The translations under genes were made by a program, and so were the position numbers. A stretch of 64,000 bases of DNA, from positions 3,224,001 through 3,288,000 of the forward strand of contig NZ_CP084506.1 of NCBI RefSeq assembly GCF_003113495.2. Direction: 5' to 3'. The notes under the pieces were generated by a model that did not search any database, was not told the DNA's origin, and was given only the letters and a program-made list of their open reading frames with translations. Origin of the DNA: Edwardsiella tarda ATCC 15947 = NBRC 105688. Lineage in GTDB: Bacteria > Pseudomonadota > Gammaproteobacteria > Enterobacterales > Enterobacteriaceae. Positions 7,530 to 57,699 of the stretch are shown piece by piece; the stretch's first letter is position 1, and every line of letters starts with the position of its first letter.

Positions 7530-7605
7530 GCCCGGATAGCTCAGTCGGTAGAGCAGGGGATTGAAAATCCCCGTGTCCTTGGTTCGATTCCGAGTCCGGG
7601 CACCA
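7530..7605 (+). tRNA. pheU: tRNA-Phe (anticodon GAA), copy 1
   Basis: A 76-nt cloverleaf: the acceptor stem GCCCGGA pairs with TCCGGGC, CCA is encoded, and GAA sits at positions 34-36 (7563-7565). The T arm has GGTTCGATTCC. Its place just after yjdC matches E. coli pheU. The mature sequence is identical to the copy at 57624. Confidence 0.98.
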
Positions 7606-33110: not shown

Positions 33111-35261
33111 TTACGCCTTGTCACCGTGGTTCTTCAGTACCACCACTTCATACTCTCCCTTACCGTTGCACTGTACCCCGTGAATATCGGTCTCGAAGCC
33201 GGGATAGTGGGCACCGATGTCGCACAACAGTTGCAGGAAGTCCAAGACCGGTTTACTGGCCTCGGTGATCATCTCCCCCGGCATAATCAACGGCACACCG
33301 GGAGGATACGGCAGGATCATGTTGGCGCTGACCCGACCGATCATCTGCTGTAACGGACAGCTTTCAATATTGCCGCGGACCTCCTCCTGGAAGGCATCGT
33401 GCGGCGTCAATACCAGCGTCGGCAGCACGTCGAAGGCGCTGTACATCAGATCCGGCAGGCGAGACTCGCTGGTCAGCGTGTGGATCCCTTGGGCCAGTTC
33501 CTGAATGCGCATGTTCTCATAGAACTCCGGCGCCTCCTGATACAGCGACGGCAACACGTTCTTCACCCGTAGGTTGAGATCGTAGACGCGCTTGAAGTCG
33601 GTCAAGGCACGCAGCAGGCTGAGGGCCTTGGTCTTATCGATACCAATGCTAAACAGGAACAACAGGTTATATGGCCCGGTCTTCTCGACGATGATGCCAT
33701 GCTCATCTAAGTACTTGGAGACGATCGATGCCGGGATCCCCCAGCTATCCATGGTGCCGTCCGCCTTCATCCCCGGGGTCAACAGCGTTACCTTGATCGG
33801 GCCCAGGAACATGTGGTCATCATCGATATTCTTGAAACCATGCCAGTCGTTGCGCGCATTCAGCGGCCAGCAAGCGACGTCATCGATGTTGTCAGGTTGC
33901 CACACGTCGAAGAACCACCCCTCGGACTCGCTACGTAGTCTCTTAATTTCCTTACGGAAGCGAATGGCGCGCTCGATAGAGTTGGCGATCAGGCGCTTAC
34001 CGGTATTGCCCTTCATCATCGCTGCCGACATCTCGGCCGAGGCCACGATACCGTAGTGCGGCGAGGTGGAGGTGTGCATCATGTAGGCCTCGTTAAAGGT
34101 CTCCTCGTTGATGATCCCCTTCACATGGATCATTGAGGCCTGAGAGAATGCGGCCAATAGCTTATGAGTGGACTGGGTTTCATAGATCACCTTACCCGGC
34201 ACCCGCTCACCACTCATCCCTGCCTTGCCCTGATAGATGGGATGGAAGTTGGTGTAGGGAACCCAAGCGGAGTCGAAGTGGATCGACTTCACATCCAGTG
34301 TCTGCTTGATATAGTCGGTGTTATAGAACAAACCGTCATAGGTGGAGTTGGTGACCACCGCATGCACCGGCCAACTGGCGTTCGGCGTGTTACGCACCTT
34401 CTCTTCGATGGCCTCGCGGGTAAACTCCTGGCGCGGGATCCCGCCCAAGATACCGTAGGCATTACGCGTCGGGCGCAGGTACAGCGGCACCACATTACTC
34501 ATCATCATCAGGTGAGTCAGTGACTTATGGCAGTTACGGTCGATCAGGATCGAGGCGCCGGCCGGCGAGGCGTACATCCCGACGATCTTGTTGGCCGTCG
34601 AGGTGCCGTTGGTCACAATATAGCTACGATCGGCGTTAAAGGTCCGGGCGATATACTCCTCGGCCTCGCGATGCGGGCCGCTGTGATCCAACAGCGAGCC
34701 GAGCTCGGCCACCGAGATAGAGATGTCGGAACGCAGGGTATTCTCACCGTAGAAGTCGTAGAACAGGGTGCCCACCGGGCTTTTTTCAAAGGCGGTGCCG
34801 CCCATGTGGCCCGGAGTACAGAAGGTATACTTCTCCTCGTGGACATACTTAAACAACGCCTTGGTCAACGGCGGCATAATGGCATCGATGTACTGATCGG
34901 TACTCTGGCGGATCTTCAACGCGATATCCTGTGCACTGCCCAGGGTGTACTCGAAGAAACGCACGTTCAGACGCAAGTCGCTCATGCTCACGTCCAGCGT
35001 CGAATAGGTATTGGCAAAGGCGTAGATCGGCAGCATCTTATTCAACGCGCTGATCTCCTCGCACAGCGCCAGGTTGTACTTATCCCAGTCGAAGATCACC
35101 CCGCATAAGCGAGCGTTATTCTCGATCAGTTTGAGTAGATCGTTACGATCGTGCGGATAGGCGATGCGAAATCCCGCCTTCTCCAGCTCCAATTGCAACT
35201 CACGCAGCGGCTCTTCCTTAAAATACACGCTCATGTCATTCATTATGGCGATGATATTCAT
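33111..35261 (-). CDS. cadA: Lysine decarboxylase (inducible type)
   Basis: PLP-dependent lysine decarboxylase that consumes a proton to make cadaverine under acid stress. Start at 35261 (MNIIAIMNDMSVYFKEEPLR) after AGGAG; upstream in-frame codons are unlikely. 716 residues (E. coli CadA 715): N-terminal wing domain, linker, PLP domain with the Schiff-base lysine in QSTHKLLAAFSQASM near residue 367, and the C-terminal domain (PYPPGVPLIMPGEM). Cotranscription with cadB identifies it as CadA rather than constitutive LdcC. Confidence 0.95.
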   Translation of the reverse strand: MNIIAIMNDMSVYFKEEPLRELQLELEKAGFRIAYPHDRNDLLKLIENNARLCGVIFDWDKYNLALCEEISALNKMLPIYAFANTYSTLDVSMSDLRLNVRFFEYTLGSAQDIALKIRQSTDQYIDAIMPPLTKALFKYVHEEKYTFCTPGHMGGTAFEKSPVGTLFYDFYGENTLRSDISISVAELGSLLDHSGPHREAEEYIARTFNADRSYIVTNGTSTANKIVGMYASPAGASILIDRNCHKSLTHLMMMSNVVPLYLRPTRNAYGILGGIPRQEFTREAIEEKVRNTPNASWPVHAVVTNSTYDGLFYNTDYIKQTLDVKSIHFDSAWVPYTNFHPIYQGKAGMSGERVPGKVIYETQSTHKLLAAFSQASMIHVKGIINEETFNEAYMMHTSTSPHYGIVASAEMSAAMMKGNTGKRLIANSIERAIRFRKEIKRLRSESEGWFFDVWQPDNIDDVACWPLNARNDWHGFKNIDDDHMFLGPIKVTLLTPGMKADGTMDSWGIPASIVSKYLDEHGIIVEKTGPYNLLFLFSIGIDKTKALSLLRALTDFKRVYDLNLRVKNVLPSLYQEAPEFYENMRIQELAQGIHTLTSESRLPDLMYSAFDVLPTLVLTPHDAFQEEVRGNIESCPLQQMIGRVSANMILPYPPGVPLIMPGEMITEASKPVLDFLQLLCDIGAHYPGFETDIHGVQCNGKGEYEVVVLKNHGDKA

Positions 35262-53125: not shown

Positions 53126-54445
53126 TTATGCCTGCTTATCACGCATCTCGAAGCGCGGCGAGACAAAGCCATACAGCGTCCAACCGAGGAAGGTGGCGAT
53201 CGCCCCCCACATCATCGCCTGCTCGCCGGAGGCGTAGAGCGCGTAGAAGCTATATAAGGCACCGACCAGCGCCAAGATGTTGGGCAAGCGTGCCTTGGCC
53301 GGATCGATCCCCGCGATACGCTGAATGATCATCAACGCCGCCATCGACAAGATATAAGGGATCAGATTGGTCACCACCGCCAAGTTGACCAGCACGTTGA
53401 ACTGCGCATTCAACGATGGGCTGATGGTCATCAGCGACAGGATCGTCTGGATCGTCACGATGGTCAGCATCCCCTTCACCGGCGCGCCAGACTGGGTGAT
53501 CTTACGGAAGATCCCCGGGAAGTAACCCTCATCGGCAGAGGACTTGAACACCTGGGCGATGGTGAACTGCCAGCCCAACAACGAGCCACAACATGACATC
53601 ACCATCAACGCCATGATGATCTTACCGACGGTCGGGTTAAACATCTGGGCGAAGGCCATGCCGAATGGGGCGGTAGAGTTGGCCAGATCCATGTTCGGCA
53701 CGATCCCGGCGATCACGTTAGTGGAGACGATGTAAATCACCGCCGCCCCCAGCGTACCGCCAAGCACCGCGATCGGTACGTTCCGTTCCGGGTTCTCCAC
53801 CACATCGGTGTTGGCGCAGGCGGACTCCAGCCCCAAGAAGGCCCACAGGGTCATGGCGATGGAGGAGCCGATGGCCTCGAAAGTCGGATAATGGTGCGGG
53901 TTCCAGGAGCCGATATACAGCGAAGGACTAAACCAGAACCAGCCGATGAGGGAGATCCCGACCACCGGGATGATCACCCCCCACACCGTCACGCTGCTGA
54001 TACGCCCGGTGATGCGCGCCCCGCCGAAGTTAGCGGCGGTACACAGCCACAACACCCCGATAGTCGCCAGGCAGATCCCCAGCGGACTCAGCGTCGCGCC
54101 GATCAGCTCCGTACCGTAGCCGACGGCGGAGATGGCGATGGCCACGTTGGCGATCAGGAGGGAGACGCCGTAGGTGTAGTTGGCCATGAAGTTGCCGGAC
54201 TTGCCGAAGGCGTACTCGGCGTAGCCCCCCATCCCACCCGACTTGCGACTGTACATACCGCACTTGGCGAAGGCATAAGCCAGGGCCATCGAACCGAGGG
54301 CCGTCACCAGCCAGGAGACGATGGAGATGGTGCCCACCTCCGCCAGTTTGGTCGGCAGCATGATGATCCCTGATCCCATCATATTGACCGCCGTCAGGAT
54401 GGTGAGCTGCACCACACCCATTTTATTGCCACTAGAGGTACTCAT
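53126..54445 (-). CDS. potE: Putrescine/ornithine antiporter PotE
   Basis: APC-family inner-membrane antiporter exporting putrescine for ornithine during acid stress. Start at 54445 (MSTSSGNKMGVVQLTILTAV), giving 439 residues, the same as E. coli PotE; a GTG at 54451 is less likely. Twelve membrane segments; NMMGSGIIMLPTKLAEVGTI and AMTLWAFLGLESACANTDVV are the substrate-site helices. It lies 94 nt downstream of speF in the same operon. Confidence 0.96.
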   Translation of the reverse strand: MSTSSGNKMGVVQLTILTAVNMMGSGIIMLPTKLAEVGTISIVSWLVTALGSMALAYAFAKCGMYSRKSGGMGGYAEYAFGKSGNFMANYTYGVSLLIANVAIAISAVGYGTELIGATLSPLGICLATIGVLWLCTAANFGGARITGRISSVTVWGVIIPVVGISLIGWFWFSPSLYIGSWNPHHYPTFEAIGSSIAMTLWAFLGLESACANTDVVENPERNVPIAVLGGTLGAAVIYIVSTNVIAGIVPNMDLANSTAPFGMAFAQMFNPTVGKIIMALMVMSCCGSLLGWQFTIAQVFKSSADEGYFPGIFRKITQSGAPVKGMLTIVTIQTILSLMTISPSLNAQFNVLVNLAVVTNLIPYILSMAALMIIQRIAGIDPAKARLPNILALVGALYSFYALYASGEQAMMWGAIATFLGWTLYGFVSPRFEMRDKQA

Positions 54446-54539
54446 AATCACACACTCTCTCTAGCGCGCGAGAAGCCTCGACTCCCCGCGACGCATCGTT
54501 AGTGGAAAAATCACTTAGCCCAGTTGATCGCTGGCCGTT

Positions 54540-56702
54540 TTAGGGTTTGATGACATAGCCGTAGGCACGGGTGCGACCATCGGCATCCTGCTGGAGGTAG
54601 ACCCCCTGCAGTTCCGGGGCGAAGCCGGGCAGCAGGTTGATGCCCTCTTCCAACGCCAGGAAGTAGCGCTGTACCGCGCCACCCCAGATCTCGCCCGGGA
54701 CGACACACAACACCCCCGGCGGGTAGGGCAGCGCCCCTTCCGCCGCGATGCGCCCCTCGATCTGCGCCAGCGCCACCAGCTCGACCTCGCCGCGCACGAA
54801 GGCGATGTTAGCCTGCTGCGGGTTCATCGCCACACGTGGGAAGTGCGCCTTACGGAACATCTCCTTCTGCAACTGCTTCACGTCGTGGCTGACATACAGG
54901 TCATGCATCTCCTGGCACAGTTGGCGCAGGGTGTAGCCCCGGTAACGGGCTTCATGGGCCTGGTAGAGCGAAGGCAGGACCTCGGCCAGCGGGGCGTCTT
55001 GCTCCAGCAGGCGTTCGAAGCGGGCGATCTGCGCCACCAGGTGCTGCATCTTGGCCAGATCCTCCGCCGGGGTGAGCAGGAACAGGATCGAGTTAAGGTC
55101 GCACTTCTCCGGCACGATGCCGTTTTCCCGCAGGAAGTTGGCCAGGATGGTGGCCGGCACCCCAAAGGCCTGGTATTCGCCGCTCTTGGCGTCGATGCCG
55201 GGCGTGGTCAGCATCAGCTTGCAGGGATCGACGAAATACTGGTGCGCGGCATAGCCGTCGAAGGCATGCCAGCGCTCACCGGGGATGAAGTCGAAGAAGC
55301 GCAGATCGTTGGCCATCTCCTCGGTGTCGAACGATTCCCACGGGCGGCCATCGACCGTCTCCGGGACGAAGGGGCGGATATGGTGGCAGGTTTGCAGCAG
55401 CAGCTTGCGCGTCTCGATCCCGAGGCGTACGCACTCCATCCACATGCGTTTCCCGCTCTCCCCGGCATGCATGCGCGCGTTGACATCCAGGGCGGCGAAC
55501 AGTGGGTAGAACGGGCTGGTGGAGGCGTGCATCATGAAGGCGTTATTCAGCCGTTTATGGTTGACGTAGCGCGCCTGTCCCTTGATGTGGCGGTCTTTCT
55601 TGTGGATCTGCGAGGTCTGGGAGAAGCCGGCCTGCTGCTTGTGAACCGACTGGGTGACCAGGATCCCCGGATCGTTCTCGTTCAGCTCCAGCAGCAGCGG
55701 CGAGCACTCTTTCATCATCGGAATAAACTGCTCGTAGCCGACCCAGGCGGAGTCGAACAGGATGTAGTCGCACAGGTGACCTATCTTGTCGACCACCTGG
55801 CGGGCGTTGTAGATGGTGCCGTCGTAGGTGCCGAGCTGGATCACCGCCAGGCGGAACGGTCGCCGCTCGCCAGCCCGCTCCGGTGCCACTTCACGCACCA
55901 GGTCGCGCAGGTAGTTCTCGTCAAAGCAGTGTGCGTCGATGCCCCCAATAAAACCGAACGGGTTGCGTGCGGTCTCCAGGTAGACCGGCGTGGCGCCGGC
56001 CTGAATCAATGCGCCGTGGTGGTTAGATTTATGATTATTACGGTCGAACAGCACCAGATCACCGGGCGTTAATAGGGCGTTGAGCACCACCTTGTTGGAG
56101 GAGGAGGTGCCGTTGAGCACGAAGTAGGTTTTGTCGGCGTTGAACACCTGGGCGGCGTGCTGCTGAGCGGCGCAAGGCGCCCCCTCATGGATCAGCAGAT
56201 CGCCCATCGAGACGTCGGCGTTACACAGGTCGGAGCGGAACAGGGTCTCCCCGAAGTAGTCGAAGAATTGGCGACCGCTGGGATGACGGCGGAAGAACTG
56301 GCCGCCTTGGTGCCCCGGGCAGTCGAAGGCGGCGTTGCCCTGTTGAACATAAGCCTTGAGGCTGCCAAAAAAGGGCGGCAACAGGGCGGCCTCATATTTC
56401 TGCGCGGCACTTTCCAATTGTTTGCCATAGAAATCTTGGTTGCCATCGTCGCAGGTAAATACCCCGGCGAGGCGTGGCAAATAATCGGCGGGTAGGCTCT
56501 CATCGTTGTGTAGCGCGGCGAAGACCGGCAAGCCGAAGGCACTCTGTTCGATCTTGTCTAACTCACCGGCGAGGATATCGGCGACGGAGAGGACCACTGC
56601 CGCGACCTCGCAGAGGTCACTATTATTTAGCGCCACAATAGGACGCATGGTATGGAAACAGTCCATAGCGTTATGGCTAGAGGCAATTTTTAAATTTGAC
56701 AT
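54540..56702 (-). CDS. speF: Inducible ornithine decarboxylase SpeF
   Basis: PLP-dependent ornithine decarboxylase producing putrescine at low pH. Start at 56702 (MSNLKIASSHNAMDC), matching E. coli MSKLKIAVSD; two upstream in-frame ATGs (56711, 56717) are possible. 720 residues (E. coli SpeF 732, which has a longer C terminus). Wing domain, then PLP domain with GTSSSNKVVLNALLTPGDLV and the Schiff-base lysine in QSVHKQQAGFSQTSQIHK, then PYPPGVLCVVPGEIWGG. The leader peptide ORF upstream and potE downstream mark it as the inducible SpeF, not the biosynthetic SpeC. Confidence 0.95.
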   Translation of the reverse strand: MSNLKIASSHNAMDCFHTMRPIVALNNSDLCEVAAVVLSVADILAGELDKIEQSAFGLPVFAALHNDESLPADYLPRLAGVFTCDDGNQDFYGKQLESAAQKYEAALLPPFFGSLKAYVQQGNAAFDCPGHQGGQFFRRHPSGRQFFDYFGETLFRSDLCNADVSMGDLLIHEGAPCAAQQHAAQVFNADKTYFVLNGTSSSNKVVLNALLTPGDLVLFDRNNHKSNHHGALIQAGATPVYLETARNPFGFIGGIDAHCFDENYLRDLVREVAPERAGERRPFRLAVIQLGTYDGTIYNARQVVDKIGHLCDYILFDSAWVGYEQFIPMMKECSPLLLELNENDPGILVTQSVHKQQAGFSQTSQIHKKDRHIKGQARYVNHKRLNNAFMMHASTSPFYPLFAALDVNARMHAGESGKRMWMECVRLGIETRKLLLQTCHHIRPFVPETVDGRPWESFDTEEMANDLRFFDFIPGERWHAFDGYAAHQYFVDPCKLMLTTPGIDAKSGEYQAFGVPATILANFLRENGIVPEKCDLNSILFLLTPAEDLAKMQHLVAQIARFERLLEQDAPLAEVLPSLYQAHEARYRGYTLRQLCQEMHDLYVSHDVKQLQKEMFRKAHFPRVAMNPQQANIAFVRGEVELVALAQIEGRIAAEGALPYPPGVLCVVPGEIWGGAVQRYFLALEEGINLLPGFAPELQGVYLQQDADGRTRAYGYVIKP

Positions 56703-57007
56703 ATTATTCATTCTCATTGATTTATTTTAGACAAAATAACCCTCTGGATTTAAATTTCATTAAATCCATCAACCGCTATATTTTCTTATGGCAATATCAG
56801 CCCGTGATGATTTTATGATGACAAATCACCGGCAGGGAAAAACGCCATAAACGATAGCCCGAAGTAAGCTACCAATGACATACATTTATCGTGGATTATC
56901 AATAATAAGCTGTAGGTATACCCTTCCCGAGGATACGCTCCCCGCGGGTATAGCAACAGATTAAGACATGACATGCCGCGATAACGGATGTCATGAAAGA
57001 GGGAGAG
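56703..57007 (-). promoter_or_regulatory. speF leader region between speFL and speF
   Basis: 305 nt of untranslated mRNA between the speFL stop and the speF start. In E. coli this region contains a Rho-dependent terminator that is bypassed when ornithine stalls a ribosome on speFL. Here it is AT-rich near speF and shows no ORF with an SD. Its length fits the same arrangement; termination itself is inferred. Confidence 0.6.
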
Positions 57008-57112
57008 TTATCTAGCGTTAAAGAGATGAAAATCAAAACAGCTGCGGTGCGCCATCATCATCAGATGGGTTACCCGCCGGATATGCGGCCAAAACCGATT
57101 ATTATTTTCCAT
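57008..57112 (-). CDS. speFL: Ornithine-sensing arrest leader peptide SpeFL
   Basis: A 34-codon ORF 305 nt upstream of speF. It has the same length as E. coli SpeFL as I remember it and shares the key blocks: MENN at the start, R6, PHIRR at residues 9-13, T15-H16, AHR at 21-23 and FDFH-FNAR at the C terminus (FDFHLFNAR here). SD GAGGA lies eight bases before the ATG. Known role: ornithine is captured by the ribosome translating SpeFL, the stalled ribosome prevents Rho termination, and speF-potE is expressed. Differences fall at 5, 7-8, 14, 17, 19-20, 24-25 and 30. Confidence 0.9.
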   Translation of the reverse strand: MENNNRFWPHIRRVTHLMMMAHRSCFDFHLFNAR

Positions 57113-57135
57113 TTTTATTTCCTCTTTCCTCGGAA

Positions 57136-57186
57136 ACTAAACTTATTGTAATGGTTCATTCTGCCGCTACCGTGATATATATCACT
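57136..57186 (-). promoter_or_regulatory. Probable speFL-speF-potE promoter with CRP-like palindrome
   Basis: On the minus strand the perfect palindrome GTGATATATATCAC (57172-57185) is followed 21 nt later by TACAAT, a good -10 hexamer, with transcription expected about 7 nt beyond. The palindrome centre is then near -41.5, the class II activator position. The half-sites GTGA-N6-TCAC agree with CRP's core, but another palindrome-binding regulator is possible. Confidence 0.5.
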
Positions 57187-57452: not shown

Positions 57453-57468
57453 TGTGATCGATATCACA
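57453..57468. promoter_or_regulatory. Consensus CRP site in speF/tRNA-Phe gap
   Basis: TGTGA, TCGATA, TCACA: both half-sites exact and the spacing correct. It is about 340 bp upstream of speFL and 130 bp upstream of the tRNA-Phe -35, so its target promoter is not obvious. The surrounding 57113-57584 stretch is very AT-rich and otherwise shows no gene. Confidence 0.65.
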
Positions 57469-57623: not shown

Positions 57624-57699
57624 GCCCGGATAGCTCAGTCGGTAGAGCAGGGGATTGAAAATCCCCGTGTCCTTGGTTCGATTCCGAGTCCGGGCACCA
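57624..57699 (+). tRNA. pheV: tRNA-Phe (anticodon GAA), copy 2
   Basis: Identical over 76 nt to copy 1 at 7530, with encoded CCA and GAA anticodon. It lies near an ornithine decarboxylase gene, as E. coli pheV lies near speC, so I use pheV. The downstream sequence through the terminator is also nearly identical to copy 1. Confidence 0.97.

Follow-up and report, generated by a model that had tools for sequence, protein, structure and literature searches.

A SpeFL-family leader peptide ahead of speF-potE in Edwardsiella tarda and a second, diverged leader in the same genome

The window analysed here is a stretch of 64,000 nucleotides from Edwardsiella tarda ATCC 15947. Its minus strand carries a short open reading frame followed by the genes of an ornithine decarboxylase and an antiporter, an arrangement referred to below as locus A:

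57008..57112, minus strand: speFL, leader peptide of locus A (34 amino acids, stop codon TAA, last codon AGA for Arg)
57065..57085, minus strand: codons 10-16 of speFL, HIRRVTH (HIRR, T15 and H16 invariant among 36 distinct peptides)
57120..57125, minus strand: Shine-Dalgarno-like AGAGGA of speFL, from the sequence, seven bases 5' of the ATG
54540..56702, minus strand: speF, inducible ornithine decarboxylase (TIGR04301, 1427.4 bits, cut-off 1310)
53126..54451, minus strand: potE, putrescine-ornithine antiporter (NF007938, 818.6 bits, cut-off 409)

The start of speF is probably at 56702, since the family profile aligns from residue 6 onward in the reading frame that opens at 56717; about 305 nt then separate the SpeFL stop from speF on the same strand. 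An earlier note on this DNA had proposed a 34-codon ORF with its own Shine-Dalgarno sequence, in which the MENN, PHIRR, FDFH and FNAR motifs of the Escherichia coli peptide could be read. The coordinates, the AGAGGA and all four motifs were found on the minus strand. The translated peptide, MENNNRFWPHIRRVTHLMMMAHRSCFDFHLFNAR, has the SpeFL of structures 6tbv and 6tc3 as its sole match in the PDB (phmmer, residues 1-34, E = 9.9e-13, 49.5 bits), with 24 of 34 residues identical to E. coli SpeFL in the alignment, and it scores above the cut-off of the Pfam SpeFL family (PF10940, 31.9 bits against 25). These matches, together with the order speF then potE downstream, bear out the note's identification of the ORF as SpeFL. 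No NCBIfam profile matched it at E up to 1, and two tRNAs alone reached the gathering cut-offs in an Rfam scan of the window, which returned no leader element. A phage origin was rejected, as tblastn against the phage collection found nothing at E up to 1. The comparative evidence makes it well supported that 57008-57112 is the speFL of the Edwardsiella speF-potE operon and an ordinary member of its family.

The note had also singled out positions 7, 8, 19 and 20 as hydrophobic positions that vary. They do differ from E. coli, but the differences total ten (positions 5, 7, 8, 14, 17, 19, 20, 24, 25 and 30), and the label does not fit E. coli T7 and K19, which are not hydrophobic. The expectation that automatic annotation usually misses the gene did not hold in the records examined, many of which do call it: all three E. 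coli chromosomes listed carry 'leader peptide SpeFL', as do three of nine records from the plasmid collection, where two others use the older 'DUF2618' and four have none, the gene table there being incomplete.

The alignment with other enterobacterial SpeFLs that the note had called for was carried out. Scanning named genomes yielded 160 confirmed SpeFL loci, the best 80 of which were retained; with nine Edwardsiella leaders added and four duplicate records removed, the set comprises 85 loci and 36 distinct peptides and is weighted toward near relatives. The window ORF fits the family core. E2, N3, N4, H10, I11, R12, R13, T15, H16, M18, R23, F26 and F28 are invariant in the 36 peptides, and the window peptide contains the HIRRxxH core (as HIRRVTH) plus F26, F28, F31 and R34. 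M19 occurs in 33 of the 36 and M20 in 17, so that both are family-typical by this alignment and K19 of E. coli is the unusual residue. W8 is shared by nine peptides, from Edwardsiella, Enterobacillus and Shimwellia. More distant SpeFLs keep HIRRTRH and differ at their N- and C-termini. The idea that positions 7, 8, 19 and 20 offer natural tests of the ornithine pocket is weakened by these data, as all four fall outside the invariant set and the last two are family-typical. Position 34 (R in 24 peptides, K in 10, L and Q in one each), the stop codon, and the paired leaders described below are better suited as natural tests. Among the 85 loci, 51 stop codons are TAA, 34 TAG and none TGA, in keeping with the inhibition of RF1 described in passages of PMC8429421. 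The stop of Salmonella orf34 is UGA according to a figure legend (PMC6386406), so that the absence of TGA among the 85 loci is no rule.

At least 20 SpeFL matches were found in at least 19 of 295 genomes of the order, in a survey that scored up to 24 candidates per genome in its first pass and was not exhaustive. All 20 matches listed lie on the same strand as a speF match, 237-611 nt ahead of it. Conversely, each of the 20 top-scoring speF matches (at least 1375 bits) has a SpeFL, and the other 19 speF matches have none; the latter are probably mostly of what we label the constitutive SpeC type. One of these 19, a SpeF-like gene in genome G253 (1367.6 bits), has no SpeFL-like reading frame among the upstream ORFs listed. 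In Haemophilus influenzae, HI0592, a 'conserved hypothetical' gene, is co-regulated with speF-potE (passages of PMC1974803). In the 85-locus set (best 80 of 160 named, plus Edwardsiella), speF follows within 900 nt downstream at every locus, both loci of genome G004 having an assembly gap inside speF; neither these loci nor the 20 matches listed in the order survey include a SpeFL ahead of any other gene. We take HI0592 to be, probably, the SpeFL of H. influenzae.

The earlier note mentioned a promoter but not its elements, which can now be placed:

57172..57185, no strand assigned: CRP/FNR-type operator GTGATATATATCAC, centred about 41 bp 5' of the predicted transcription start
57145..57150, minus strand: -10 box TACAAT (predicted transcription start about 57138, 5'UTR of 25 nt)

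Judged by the conserved operator, the -10 box and the AGAGGA, speFL has both its own promoter and its own ribosome-binding site. A perfect GTGA-N6-TCAC within 250 nt upstream of speFL occurs at 55 of the 85 loci (best 80 of 160 named, plus Edwardsiella), where dinucleotide shuffles lead to an expectation of 0.20. A TANNNT box lies exactly 21 bp past the operator at 54 of these 55 by script; at the remaining one (L061), the printed row also has TAGAAT at +21. The other 30 loci and E. coli match seven of the eight half-site bases (six in one case), with the -10 box at the same spacing. Since this seven-of-eight search favoured the spacing, a null was built for the combination: an operator with at least seven of eight bases and a -10 box at exactly +21 occur together at 27 of the 28 loci chosen as representative (one per genus or lineage, Edwardsiella twice), against 0.04 expected. 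Outside near relatives, the arrangement was found at one of ten testable SpeFL loci, with too short an upstream sequence at one more. All nine Edwardsiella leaders found keep the promoter spacing and the -10 box. A generic sigma-70 scan requiring a -35 element missed the promoter.

A centre near -41 is the class II position of CRP/FNR-family activators. The E. coli operator reads TTGATCTTCTTCAC, presumably an FNR-like half mixed with a CRP-like half. In E. coli, 39 nt separate the -10 box from the ATG, and the geometry predicts the ATG near +32; the Salmonella leader ATG was mapped at +32 (passages of PMC6386406). We favour CRP as the candidate activator because of the GTGA half-site and because a crp mutant of Proteus mirabilis is defective in ornithine decarboxylase activity, a result given as 'data not shown' in the relevant passage of PMC5544767. 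In Haemophilus and Shewanella, speF expression responds to ArcA, according to passages of PMC1974803, PMC2627913 and PMC2262068. The CRP/FNR-type operator at fixed spacing (27 of 28) points to gating of the ornithine switch by carbon or oxygen status. Further upstream, a perfect TGTGA-N6-TCACA palindrome lies at window positions 57453-57468, 348 nt from the speFL ATG; in three other Edwardsiella genomes, the 700 nt ahead of the locus A leader lack it. Beyond the promoter, on the other strand, lies a tRNA-Phe (GAA) gene (57624-57699), which has a counterpart of equal score 50 kb away (7530-7605).

From the 3' end of speFL to the start of speF, the leader RNA contains these elements of possible regulatory meaning:

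56993..57047, minus strand: SpeFL 3' end and stop region, predicted partner of the speF ribosome-binding region (33 predicted pairs)
56695..56747, minus strand: speF ribosome-binding region, predicted by folding to pair with the SpeFL stop region
56995..57007, minus strand: pyrimidine tract directly past the speFL stop (first 12 bases all pyrimidines)
56967..56995, minus strand: hairpin just past the speFL stop (z = -4.6 against mononucleotide shuffles)

The pyrimidine tract alone was rejected as the partner of the speF ribosome-binding site: its duplex test was negative (median rank 0.50) at the 42 loci of the 85 (best 80 of 160 named, plus Edwardsiella) in which a script located the speF start. 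Whole leaders were next folded to test the wider stop region. In the window, the 33 pairs predicted between this region and the speF ribosome-binding site were reached by none of 40 shuffles, and one of 100 shuffles folded as well as the whole locus A leader (z = -3.5). Sixteen leaders were chosen for folding and 15 run; at least seven such pairs were predicted in 11 of the 15, each value reached by 0-4 of 40 shuffles, and the window pairing was the second strongest. No such pairs were predicted in three of the other leaders, nor in the second leader of the window genome. With regard to the tract itself, at most 5% of leader 12-mers are pyrimidine-richer than the 12-mer after the stop at 66 of the 85 loci (best 80 of 160 named, plus Edwardsiella). 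At 56995-57007 it would sit under an arrested ribosome and may belong to the region where Rho loads. Near the stop, C outnumbers G, with 20-24 C and 10-13 G in the four 78-nt segments that begin 60 to 15 nt upstream of the stop codon's last base; the whole gap from SpeFL to speF has no C excess in the window leader (C/G = 0.95), the ratio exceeding 1 in 37 of 42 gaps. The hairpin was discarded as a universal feature, with z below -2 at just eight of 28 representative loci and -0.3 at the second locus.

The genome of the window (G000, 3.80 Mb) contains a second SpeFL at C1:501496-501597, 91% identical to the first. This locus B (within C1:490000-509000) comprises SpeFL, speF, potE and, 15 bp past potE, a gene for lysine decarboxylase (NF011929, 1473.5 bits, cut-off 1056). 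Relatives examined include E. piscicida, E. anguillarum and E. hoshinae, and both leaders are present in four of the five Edwardsiella genomes. The locus A leader was not found in the draft genome G003, whose locus B leader ends in Gln34 and not Arg34, a naturally occurring change at the final position. In four of the five genomes, potE-B is followed by the lysine decarboxylase gene, E. hoshinae having none within the 8 kb examined, and none was found past potE in the best 80 of the 160 named loci, seven of which have less than 4600 nt downstream. The window itself carries another lysine decarboxylase-like gene (33178-35103) with 78% DNA identity to that of locus B. All nine Edwardsiella leaders have locus-specific residues, RFW in A and KNW or KSW in B. 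In the window genome, 15 codons differ synonymously between the two leaders and three non-synonymously. Since this synonymous excess persists while the bins upstream of the leaders have diverged to 14-34% identity, the sequences indicate purifying selection on both leaders.

One tract of speF is nearly the same at both loci:

54552..56640, minus strand: tract apparently homogenised with the second speF of the window genome (27 differences in 2089 bp)

Three genomes with both copies were compared (G000 and G001 complete, G004 in part). In G000, speF A and B are 96-100% identical per 100-column bin from about codon 21 to the stop; in G001, the two loci agree at every mapped column from 56623 to 54348. 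Between genomes, speF of locus A is 62-97% identical in G000 and G001, and speF of locus B 91-99% in the closer pair, G001 and G003. A tree of the last 741 bp of speF groups A with B by genome (support 99 in G004, 91 in G001 and 100 in G000). The tree of potE is split by locus, with support of 100 for B, and potE A and B of G000 are 54-89% identical. The speF copies have thus apparently been homogenised by gene conversion, to judge from these alignments. The conversions appear to exclude the leaders, because the locus-specific residues persist in all nine; leaders, 5'UTRs and potE are all distinct by locus. As potE-B is further from potE-A (71% identical) than is the potE of six other genera compared in full (83-88%), locus B may be an old paralogue or have been acquired from elsewhere.

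In E. coli, SpeFL captures ornithine in the exit tunnel, which blocks release at the stop codon. For locus A, we infer the stalling, the role of Rho and the dependence on ornithine. The explanation that follows is, taken as a whole, highly likely in our view. To judge by its conserved site, a CRP/FNR-family activator near -41 would drive transcription from about 57138. With no stalled ribosome, Rho would end transcription within speFL or beyond it, and the stop region of the leader gene would, as predicted here, pair with the speF ribosome-binding site; both Rho termination and such a hiding pairing have been reported in Salmonella (passages of PMC6386406). With ornithine plentiful, nascent SpeFL would capture it in the exit tunnel and prevent release at the stop codon. 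The arrested ribosome would cover the pyrimidine tract and break the pairing, so that speF-potE would be transcribed and translated. A second, diverged leader would act ahead of the second speF-potE and the lysine decarboxylase gene of the same genome, and gene conversion would hold the two SpeF enzymes alike, with leader and promoter remaining operon-specific. The earlier note's view that the circuit is conserved here finds backing for its parts in the sequence, the synteny, the conserved promoter and the predicted fold that sequesters the ribosome-binding site, and the circuit of ornithine arrest and relief from Rho is very probably conserved at this locus.

Several alternatives may be weighed against this circuit. 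The leader could be translated and act mainly as an attenuator of arginine supply, ornithine arrest being weak or lost: slowing of the ribosome at R12-R13 would alter RNA folding and decay by RNase G. Attenuation by arginine is reported for Salmonella orf34 in passages of PMC6386406, R12-R13 is invariant in the 36 peptides, and its codons are AGG CGG at 33 of the 85 loci (peptides and loci both from the set built on the best 80 of 160) and CGG CGG in the window. Yet the conserved HIRRxxH core and C-terminal FDFH.FNAR would not be needed by a purely codon-level sensor, and the arginine codons differ between leaders A (CGG CGG) and B (CGA CGC) with the peptide kept. We regard a mainly arginine-sensing leader as unlikely. 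As arginine is a reported signal in the Salmonella study (PMC6386406), ornithine need not be the sole one.

Alternatively, given a second speF operon, the leader of locus A might be decaying or redundant and its similarity residual. The genome does have two copies, and the draft G003, where no locus A leader was found, has Q34 at the end of its other leader. Nevertheless, the window leader differs from three other A leaders by 8-10 synonymous against 1-2 amino-acid codon changes, and promoter spacing and -10 box are kept in all nine Edwardsiella leaders, which makes decay very improbable. That the ORF arose by chance would be conceivable from the frequency of short ORFs, 93 of at least 25 amino acids overlapping the 8.5-kb stretch around it; it is ruled out by the PDB match (E = 9.9e-13), the synteny with speF at 85 of 85 loci (best 80 of 160 named, plus Edwardsiella) and the strong excess of synonymous change, and we give it practically no weight.

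The conserved ornithine-arrest circuit thus remains the preferred reading, with the SpeFL of a known family placed in an unusual doubled arrangement in Edwardsiella. SpeF and SpeF2 of E. piscicida have been named as Fur-regulated (passages of PMC6288947). Searches of open-access papers turned up no account of paired SpeFL leaders or of conversion between speF genes. One tentative possibility, to which we give somewhat less than even weight, is that two differently tuned ornithine switches act on one enzyme and that switch B adds lysine decarboxylase, linking the lysine and ornithine acid-resistance systems. It is based on near-identical SpeF coding sequences combined with leader peptides, predicted 5'UTR lengths (25-26 nt at locus A, 84-119 nt at locus B) and RBS pairing that are distinct by locus. 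Independently of this, the genus offers a natural comparison of two leaders on one enzyme, both with conserved promoters, in which leader sequence, 5'UTR and RBS pairing vary with the enzyme held constant. If SpeFL also governs a lysine decarboxylase, the ornithine switch would gain a new output.

Several known systems can be compared with this arrangement. The E. piscicida work already has two SpeF proteins of this genus in print, but its subject is Fur control, and its available passages (PMC6288947) mention neither leaders nor gene conversion. Salmonella orf34 resembles the window leader in its position near the transcription start, in a pairing that hides the speF ribosome-binding site (predicted here) and in consecutive arginine codons, whereas the window leader is shorter, its SpeFL stop lying 305 nt from speF, and stops at TAA where the legend in PMC6386406 gives UGA. 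E. coli SpeFL (PF10940; 6tbv, 6tc3) shares the length of 34 amino acids, 24 identical residues, the HIRRxxH core, speF-potE downstream and the promoter geometry. The window peptide differs from it by ten substitutions, W8 and M19 among them, and by its TAA stop where the E. coli record has TAG, and its genome has two loci. Arrest of TnaC, the leader peptide of the tryptophanase operon, has an anti-Rho role. TnaC is also alike in its metabolite-dependent arrest at the stop codon, which blocks release, but according to passages of PMC8429421 it senses tryptophan, is unrelated in sequence and involves RF2, not RF1.
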